DNA of 64,000 nucleotides from Porphyrobacter sp. ULC335 (GTDB lineage Bacteria > Pseudomonadota > Alphaproteobacteria > Sphingomonadales > Sphingomonadaceae), in the NCBI RefSeq assembly GCF_025917005.1, contig NZ_CP078091.1:2294001-2358000 (forward strand), given 5' to 3'. Made by a program: the position numbers and the translations under genes. Positions 52,063-58,153 of this stretch are shown piece after piece (position 1 is the first letter of the stretch; each line of letters opens with the position of its first letter). Below the pieces are notes generated by a model, which worked only from the letters and a program-made list of their open reading frames with translations, was not told the origin of the DNA and made no database searches.

Positions 52063-53751
52063 TCAGACGGCGGAGGAAGCCACAGCCGAATTCGCCGCAG
52101 ATAGCACCGCCCGCACACTGGCGGTGGCGATGTCCTCGTCGATCCCGCAGCCCCAGATGGTCCGGCCGTCAGGCGCGCGGCATTCGAGATAGGCGGCCGC
52201 GCGCGCATCTGTGCCAGCGCCAAGCGCGTGTTCGCTGTAATCGACCACCTCAAGCTCGACCCCGAAGGCCTCGCGCAAGGTGCCCATCACGCTGGAGATG
52301 AGCCCGTTGCCGCGGCCCGAGACAGACTGCTCTGTGCCGTCGACCGCGATGGTGCCAGCAAAGATGCGCGTGCCATCTGACGCGCGGCTTTCCTCGTAAC
52401 GGACAAGCTGGAAATGCTTGGGATGGGTCTTGACGTGATAGGCGCGGCGGAACGCGTCCCAGATGTCGGCAGCGCCCAGCTCGCGGCCCAATTCGTCCGC
52501 CATCTGTTGCACGTGTTTCGAGAAATCGGCCTGCATCTTCTTGGGCAGCTTGAGGCCCTGATCCTTCTCCAGCACCCAGGCGAACCCGCCCTTGCCGGAC
52601 TGCGAATTGACGCGGATCACCGCTTCGTAGCTGCGCCCGAGATCGGCGGGATCGATGGGCAGATAGGGCACGCGCCACGCCTCGTCGTTCTGCGTATCGC
52701 GCGCTTCGAAGCCCTTCTTGATCGCATCCTGATGGCTTCCGCTGAACGCGGTGTAGACCAGTTCCCCGCCATAGGGGTGGCGCTGGTGGACGGGCAGATC
52801 GTTGCAATAGGTGACCGTCTCGATCACCCGGTCGATGTCCGAGAAATCCAGCTCCGGATCGACGCCCTGCGTGTAGAGATTGAGCGCCATCGTCACGAGG
52901 CAGCAATTGCCGGTGCGCTCGCCATTGCCGAACAGACAGCCTTCGACGCGGTCCGCGCCTGCCATCAGCCCCAGCTCTGCCGCCGCGACACCGGTGCCGC
53001 GGTCGTTGTGGGTGTGGAGTGAGAGGATCGCGCTTTCGCGGTTCGGCAGATGCCGCGCGAAGTATTCGATCTGGTCGGCGTAGATATTGGGCGTCGCCGC
53101 CTCGACCGTGGCGGGGAGGTTGAGGATGATCGGATGTTCAGGGGTGGGCTGGAGCACCTCCATCACCGCCGCGCAGACCTCGATGCTGAAGTCGAGTTCG
53201 GCGGTGGAGAAGGTTTCGGGGCTGTACTGGAAGTGCCAGTCGGTATCCGGATATCTGGCCGCCTCGTCGCGCATCACCTTGGCGCCGGCGACGGCGATGG
53301 CTTTCACCTCGTCCTTGCTCATGCGGAACACGATGTCGCGCCACGCCGGGCTGACCGCGTTGTAGAGGTGGACGATTGCCGCGCGCGCGCCTTCGAGGCT
53401 GGCAAAGCTGGTGCGGATCAGGTCTTCGCGGCTTTGGGTCAGCACCTGCACGATCACGTCATCCGGGATCGCGTCGGACTTGACGAGACCGGAGATGAAA
53501 TCGAACTCAGTCGCGCCAGCGCTGGGGAAGCCGACTTCGATTTCCTTGAGACCGACCTCGACCAGCAGGTCGAAGAAGCGCCGCTTCTTCACCGCGTCCA
53601 TCGGATCGATGATCGACTGGTTACCATCGCGCAGATCGGTCGACAGCCAGCGCGGGGCTTTCTCGATCAGGCGCGAGGGCCATTGGCGGTCTGGCAGGTT
53701 GATCTGGCCAAACGGACGGTACTTGGCGGAAGGCTGCTTGAGCATGGGCAT
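52063..53751 (-). CDS. leuA: 2-isopropylmalate synthase
   Basis: Condenses 2-oxoisovalerate with acetyl-CoA, the first committed step of leucine synthesis. The 562-aa protein is of the long LeuA type: catalytic STDLRDGNQS at the N-terminus, metal-binding SLHTHNDRG, GCLFGNGERTGN, and a C-terminal regulatory domain from about residue 430 (YEESRASDGTRIFAGTIAVDG) for leucine feedback inhibition. Start MPMLKQPSAKYRPFGQ has a second in-frame ATG two codons in. A leucine-rich leader peptide lies 87 bases upstream, suggesting attenuation. Confidence 0.95.
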   Translation of the reverse strand: MPMLKQPSAKYRPFGQINLPDRQWPSRLIEKAPRWLSTDLRDGNQSIIDPMDAVKKRRFFDLLVEVGLKEIEVGFPSAGATEFDFISGLVKSDAIPDDVIVQVLTQSREDLIRTSFASLEGARAAIVHLYNAVSPAWRDIVFRMSKDEVKAIAVAGAKVMRDEAARYPDTDWHFQYSPETFSTAELDFSIEVCAAVMEVLQPTPEHPIILNLPATVEAATPNIYADQIEYFARHLPNRESAILSLHTHNDRGTGVAAAELGLMAGADRVEGCLFGNGERTGNCCLVTMALNLYTQGVDPELDFSDIDRVIETVTYCNDLPVHQRHPYGGELVYTAFSGSHQDAIKKGFEARDTQNDEAWRVPYLPIDPADLGRSYEAVIRVNSQSGKGGFAWVLEKDQGLKLPKKMQADFSKHVQQMADELGRELGAADIWDAFRRAYHVKTHPKHFQLVRYEESRASDGTRIFAGTIAVDGTEQSVSGRGNGLISSVMGTLREAFGVELEVVDYSEHALGAGTDARAAAYLECRAPDGRTIWGCGIDEDIATASVRAVLSAANSAVASSAV

Positions 53752-53797: not shown

Positions 53798-53851
53798 CCC
53801 TTGGGAGCGGTGCCGCGGCTGTCTCCGCGCGCGGCTGCCTACGCCCAAGGG
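53798..53851 (-). promoter_or_regulatory. inverted repeat in the leuA leader (candidate attenuator)
   Basis: CCCTTGGG within the Pro-Trp codons of the leader peptide (plus-strand 53844-53851) can pair with CCCAAGGG downstream on the transcript (53805-53798). Alternative GCGGC/GCCGC pairing with the following segment and a pyrimidine-rich run (about 53786-53772) are present, as in an antiterminator/terminator switch. The alternative structures were judged by eye only. Confidence 0.45.
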
Positions 53852-53889
53852 CGCATAAGTCGAAGCAGCAGGAGTCCGTTCCGCGTCAT
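53839..53889 (-). CDS. leuL: leucine-rich leader peptide of leuA
   Basis: A 16-codon reading frame, MTRNGLLLLRLMRPWA, with four consecutive leucines and a fifth after one arginine. It ends 87 bases before leuA. A CATAAT -10-like box at 53913-53908 would put the transcript start only about a dozen bases ahead of the ATG. Such peptides sense charged tRNA-Leu by ribosome stalling. The ribosome binding site is weak. The leucine run and position make chance unlikely. Confidence 0.72.
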   Translation of the reverse strand: MTRNGLLLLRLMRPWA

Positions 53890-53957
53890 GGCGTGCAGTC
53901 TTTGCCGATTATGCCTGAGCGCGCAAGCGGGGAATGGCCCGGGGCGCTACCCTGCCG

Positions 53958-54422
53958 TCAACCGCAGCGTGCGTCGCGGATGATGTTCTGCGCATCGAGC
54001 ATGATCGACAGGCGCGGGTTGGTCGGATCGGGATTGACGTTGCCGCCGCTGCCAAAGGCGACGAAACGCAGATTGTCGGTGCGGCCGAGCATCTTGGCGA
54101 TTTCGGCGCGGGTCGCCTGATCGGCGAGCTTGCCCATGAATGGCCCCATCAGCGGCGCGCCGCAGGTCTTTGATGCCGGATCGGTCAGGGTGCCGCGCGC
54201 GAATGGCCCGGGTGCAGCGCCGGGGAGCGGTTGCGCGATCTGCGGGGTGGCAGTGGCAGCAGGGGCGGGAGTACCGCCCGGCGCGGGCGTTGCCTCGCCT
54301 GCCCCGATACGCTCGGCAAAGCTTTCGGCATCATTGCCGGGCTGCTGCGGCTCGCTCCCGCAGGCTGAGAGTGCCAGGGCGAGGGCGGGGACGGCAAAAG
54401 AAAGGGCACGAGCGGTGATCAT
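53958..54422 (-). CDS. lipoprotein with I78-type peptidase inhibitor domain
   Basis: A 154-aa lipoprotein: MITARALSFAVPALALALSAC ends in a lipobox cysteine. A Pro/Ala/Thr-rich linker (residues ~30-75) leads to a C-terminal domain resembling the Potato-inhibitor-I-like I78 family: KTCGAPLMGPFMGK, then TRAEIAKMLG, ending PRLSIMLDAQNIIRDARCG with the family's final CG. It probably restrains a periplasmic serine protease. It is upstream of leuA but separated by the leader region. Confidence 0.82.
   Translation of the reverse strand: MITARALSFAVPALALALSACGSEPQQPGNDAESFAERIGAGEATPAPGGTPAPAATATPQIAQPLPGAAPGPFARGTLTDPASKTCGAPLMGPFMGKLADQATRAEIAKMLGRTDNLRFVAFGSGGNVNPDPTNPRLSIMLDAQNIIRDARCG

Positions 54423-57112: not shown

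Positions 57113-58153
<1,041 letters not shown>

Follow-up and report, generated by a model that had tools for sequence, protein, structure and literature searches.

We believe that leuA of Porphyrobacter sp. ULC335 is likely to be governed by a cis-acting, leucine-responsive attenuator whose output is translational and is delivered by a stalled ribosome. Judged by comparison with its relatives, the short open reading frame upstream of the gene is a conserved leucine leader and not a chance frame. The arrangement that explains the data is a nest of three RNA helices, P1, P2 and P3. The sensing of leucyl-tRNA supply through the leader ribosome would be the natural reading of such a leader.

The features we discuss are collected in the table, numbered along the 64,000-nucleotide stretch analysed here (the window). 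The preliminary description claimed a 16-codon Leu-rich frame before leuA with an inverted repeat involving its last codons, and both are there: the repeat pairs CCCTTGGG (53851-53844) with CCCAAGGG (53805-53798) in 8 perfect pairs. The 87 bases it gave between the leader stop and the leuA ATG at 53751 are exact. The codons are ATG ACG CGG AAC GGA CTC CTG CTG CTT CGA CTT ATG CGC CCT TGG GCG TAG. The Arg codon CGA between the last two Leu codons (53862-53860) is kept in nearly all observed forms of the leader and is perhaps decoded slowly. The downstream protein scores 815 bits against NCBIfam TIGR00970, for which the cut-off is 697; this long form is the yeast/actinobacterial type of 2-isopropylmalate synthase. 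An ilvC-like ketol-acid reductoisomerase frame (57113-58132, minus) shares the strand of leuA and lies about 3.4 kb upstream of it, which makes a loose cluster of branched-chain genes. Immediately upstream of the leader is a small lipoprotein-like frame (53958-54422, minus); several relatives have other genes in this place and retain the leader.

Table. Features of the leuA leader region, in coordinates of the window
Feature	Position	Strand	Basis or remark
Likely -35 element TTGCGC	53921..53926	-	Position-specific conservation in 136 family members
Likely -10 element CAAAGA, 9 nt before leader ATG	53899..53904	-	Same conservation
Leader ORF, 16 codons + TAG, MTRNGLLLLRLMRPWA; start ATG 53889, stop TAG 53839	53839..53889	-	Sequence read; conserved in relatives
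Leu codons CTC CTG CTG CTT (CGA) CTT, presumed sensing codons and P1 5' strand	53857..53874	-	In-frame Leu enrichment
P0 hairpin UGCGCC(CUUG)GGCGUA in leader 3' end	53840..53855	-	Covariation
P2 5' arm CCCUUGGG, codons 13-15	53844..53851	-	Covariation
P3 inner hairpin GCCGCG...CGCGGC	53812..53835	-	Fold
P2 3' arm CCCAAGGG	53798..53805	-	Covariation
P1 3' strand candidate GCAGC, pairs with GCUGC 53869-53865 in Leu codons	53784..53788	-	5 bp only
leuA, long-type 2-isopropylmalate synthase, 562 aa	52063..53751	-	NCBIfam TIGR00970

Within the family, the leader is a regular companion of leuA and stands ahead of it. The preliminary description had staked the frame on its conservation in relatives, and conserved it is. 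A protein search finds long LeuA in all sampled genomes of the same genus except one, and all 30 of the same-genus leuA upstreams read, at loci found by the protein alone, carry a leader ending in ...LRL[MTI]RPW. The gene further upstream varies among these species while the leader is constant. For the family we used an exact pattern, the 19-mer CGACTTAYNCGCCCYTDRG, with the same pattern read backwards as the control. Of 199 family genomes, 139 carry the pattern, each a single time, and these span 72 of 96 genera; the control gives one match only in the 199. Long LeuA is present in 130 of the 199, and every element among the 117 family loci read sits before a leuA, either long-type or short-type. 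The short-type LeuA (IFDTTLRDGEQ) is clearly distinct from the long one. A further scan with the pattern covered named genomes of Sphingopyxis, Sphingobium, Novosphingobium, Erythrobacter, Qipengyuania, Croceicoccus, Roseomonas and others; it gave 80 readable matches, of which 78 were testable, and each of these lies ahead of a leuA (63 long, 15 short type). Our covariance model matches 12 of 13 leuA upstreams that lack the exact pattern. Variants among such loci include CGACUAA, and stems with CGG or CAG replacing UGG. Since CGACUAA is a change to a synonymous Leu codon, a strict requirement for the heptamer CGACUUA was dropped.

The element reaches well beyond the family. Among 246 genomes of the order, model R1 matches 139, and almost all of these belong to the family itself; in the class Alphaproteobacteria it matches 36 of 289. 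The class matches that were examined precede leuA, read LLRLTRP, LRLIGP, LRLSRP, LRLRCP and similar, mostly with a UGA stop, and carry the stem CCCCUGAGCG / CGUUCAGGGG. At E<=0.01, a threshold at which a few chance matches are to be expected, model R2 hits 89 of the 337 class genomes; of 51 further class loci examined, 43 precede leuA. A sample of the whole phylum gave 31 model matches, 30 of them alphaproteobacterial. Rfam 15 holds no family that matches the element. Attenuators in proteobacteria were reportedly surveyed by Vitreschak et al. 2004, whose survey might list some members; in the literature searched, an alphaproteobacterial leuA leader element is undescribed.

Other leaders were met along the way. 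Different Leu-rich frames stand before long-type leuA genes, STLLLLGLIGDRRVR in another alphaproteobacterial family and MKTAHTLILLRQHACLRLVSPRLRG in a non-alphaproteobacterial group (L053, L054, L059, L061; L045, L047, L049), and these look like separate leader families. In the leuA upstream of Ochrobactrum (L197:503-559) an 11-bp hairpin comes after CTGCGACTTATC, and the model score is weak; this is possibly a distant form of the same element. On the Tistrella plasmid pTM2 (L198) a leuA homologue adjoins a lasso-peptide B2 gene.

Selection acts on the translation of this leader. When leaders are aligned on the conserved CGA, in-frame Leu occupies codons -1 to -4 in 95, 78, 55 and 61% of cases. 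Over codons -5 to -1 the share is 61% in frame as against 2-6% in the other frames. The Leu codons vary synonymously, and in loci found without the pattern CTT and CTA exchange at the last of them. In-frame Leu with synonymous variation, together with a start codon at a fixed spacing from the promoter, is what argues for selection on translation and not on the RNA alone.

For the promoter, conservation points away from the box first proposed. The CATAAT box that had been proposed as -10-like is present at 53913-53908, but it lies outside the conserved promoter pattern and is probably not the element in use. Aligning 136 family members on the leader ATG reveals base preferences at about -36/-35 (TT) and at -12 (A), which here would fall on TTGCGC and CAAAGA; the latter resembles the alphaproteobacterial GCTANAWC type of -10. 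A scan of the region for the sigma-70 consensus found nothing. No Shine-Dalgarno signal precedes the leader ATG in this genome or across the 136 aligned family members. These base preferences and the missing Shine-Dalgarno signal together suggest that the transcript starts within a few bases of the ATG, and if TTGCGC/CAAAGA is the promoter the leader mRNA would be nearly leaderless.

The RNA structure has to be argued from comparison as well. The preliminary description called for folding of the region in search of mutually exclusive hairpins. The single-sequence fold is unremarkable (z-score -0.84; 42 of 200 shuffles fold equally well), but covariation does reveal exclusive hairpins, so the case rests on covariation and comparison. 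In the alignment 97% of P2 cells are paired, both sides have changed at 5-6 of its 10 pairs, and none of 500 shuffles reaches its covariation score. The codon inside the P2 arm is UGG, UAG, UAA, UGA, CGG or CAG depending on the species, and the opposite arm follows each time; in most relatives the leader stop codon itself lies inside the P2 5' arm. P0, with its CUUG-like loop, spans the last leader codons and is paired in 95.8% of cells over 51 sequences, with double changes at two pairs. P0 and P2 use one common arm and therefore cannot coexist, and since both covary, the mutually exclusive hairpins at the 3' end of the leader are well founded. P3 is variable in length, missing in some relatives, and has very short loops in two of them (L172, L235).

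The output step is where relatives tell more than the target genome. In relatives, RNA 3' of P2 is the pairing partner of the Leu codons, and we call this helix P1. After dereplication, the native leader-linker pairs beat 5000 of 5000 partner permutations in both the family (n=54) and the class (n=39), so the pairing is specific to each genome and is not the product of base composition alone. Of the P1 stems of at least 7 bp, 22 of 31 in the family and 14 of 22 in the class overlap the leuA ribosome-binding site; strong examples are UGGUCCUUCG with CGAAGGACCA (L259) and CUUCGGCUGC with GCAGCCGAAG (L246). In ensemble folding over the family, leader-to-site pairing is 0.344 for native and 0.251 for swapped partners (p=0.014 over clusters). 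In the target genus, folding gives native partners no advantage over swapped ones in how far a stalled ribosome frees the ribosome-binding site. The P1 of the target genome is GCUGC/GCAGC, 5 bp long and 32 nt before the leuA ATG. Pairing between the P2 3' arm and the linker was also considered, as a competing 'segment 4', and was rejected because it does no better than swapped partners (quantile 0.50). The evidence thus points, in the relatives, to the leuA ribosome-binding site and not to transcription termination as the output. For the element family as a whole, the output is best read as translational; in this genome we infer as much from the relatives, because its own P1 is short and misses the ribosome-binding site.

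It is important to ask what else could make such a region. In the target genus the main rival is Rho-dependent attenuation, in which translation of the leader decides whether Rho gains access to the linker between P2 and leuA. It earns this place since the linker there is C-rich and G-poor (C 0.42, G 0.13), and the weak P1 of the genus and the lack of an intrinsic terminator also agree with it. However, the linker is only 37-99 nt long (median 49), short for a rut site, and in relatives there is a pairing to the leuA ribosome-binding site that has coevolved and would be superfluous under Rho control. We consider it unlikely. Intrinsic-terminator attenuation in the style of the E. coli leu operon would make P2, or some hairpin further downstream, the terminator; it is one sense of the word classic, which the preliminary description applied to the layout. 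The conserved Leu-rich leader and the mutually exclusive hairpins of that layout stood up; the intrinsic terminator and a leader match in Rfam did not. Nothing terminator-like follows the leader in this genome, and most family members lack a U-tract after P2, the runs of 4-5 T being confined to 11 of 142 relatives. With no intrinsic terminator following, this is not a classic leu attenuator. Moreover, stalling on Leu codons upstream of P2 would favour P2, which is the wrong direction for P2 as a terminator, and we find the idea scarcely credible.

The peptide might instead act on its own account, arresting the ribosome in response to free leucine in the manner of TnaC. TnaC also ends in Arg-Pro before its stop, and LRLxRP is highly conserved as a peptide here, often with the stop directly after it. 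Across the class, however, all that is kept is L-R-L and the CCC codon that P2 requires (endings are GP, SP, CP or NP), and in many family members, among them the target, RPWA precedes the stop, so an arrest peptide seems to us highly improbable. A structured 5' UTR working without leader translation, as a protein-binding site or a stability element, would account for the very strong conservation of P2 and the CGACUU core at the RNA level. It would leave the in-frame Leu with its synonymous codon variation and the fixed spacing of start codon and promoter without a reason, and we give it as little credence as the terminator.

We therefore return to the stalled-ribosome attenuator and set out how it would work; the stalling, the leucine response and the direction of control are inferred. 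The transcript would begin on the leader ATG or very close to it. A shortage of charged tRNA-Leu would make the ribosome dwell on the conserved Leu codons and cover them; in many relatives it is these codons that form the anti-Shine-Dalgarno strand of P1 against the leuA site. With the Leu codons hidden, the ribosome-binding site would be free and leuA translated. When leucine is plentiful, the ribosome would run on to the stop codon, inside P2 in most relatives, and leave; P1, P2 and P3 would then refold and close leuA. P0 would serve within this switch as a second hairpin, exclusive of P2.

Several known systems bear comparison. The actinobacterial LEU element upstream of leuA, described by Seliverstov et al. 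2005 (PMC1262725), has a conserved pseudoknot (PMC1262725). Both elements put a run of Leu codons before leuA and neither has a terminator. In the LEU element the Leu codons pair with the leuA Shine-Dalgarno sequence; here the same holds statistically in the family and the class, while the target stem is 5 bp and off the site. The stem P2 with its stop codon belongs to the alphaproteobacterial element and is not described for LEU. The leaders of four actinobacterial leuA upstreams read LLLGRR or LLLSCR, and sequence homology was rejected, since the model matches none of the four (L192-L195) at E<=1. The alphaproteobacterial element is logically like the LEU element and unrelated to it in sequence. 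The E. coli-type leu attenuator (Rfam Leu_leader) shares the Leu-rich leader peptide, the exclusive hairpins and the presumed sensing of charged tRNA-Leu; it differs from the present element, which has no intrinsic terminator, another sequence and no Rfam match. In Sinorhizobium meliloti, trpL is a leader ORF on a leaderless transcript that starts at the AUG (PMC10117765). It too is an alphaproteobacterial leader, and a leaderless transcript is probable here as well, but trpL concerns tryptophan and transcription attenuation, and the sequences are unrelated.

The widest claim we can make is of an unlisted RNA family across the Alphaproteobacteria, in which a single stretch of RNA has three tasks: the Leu codons both sense leucyl-tRNA and serve as the anti-Shine-Dalgarno strand that shuts leuA, and the switch is set by a stem that incorporates the leader's stop codon. 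The element would have stayed with leuA even where the type of enzyme was exchanged. We hold this claim to be about evenly balanced between right and wrong. If it is right, one of the largest bacterial classes would have in common a leucine control element that can be tested, that gene callers overlook and that is absent from Rfam. It would be attenuation without a terminator, with the stop codon retained within a covarying stem. The element would also make a good reporter system for how the probably leaderless leader peptides of Alphaproteobacteria sense amino acids, and the leaders would be clean markers with which to correct the annotation upstream of leuA.
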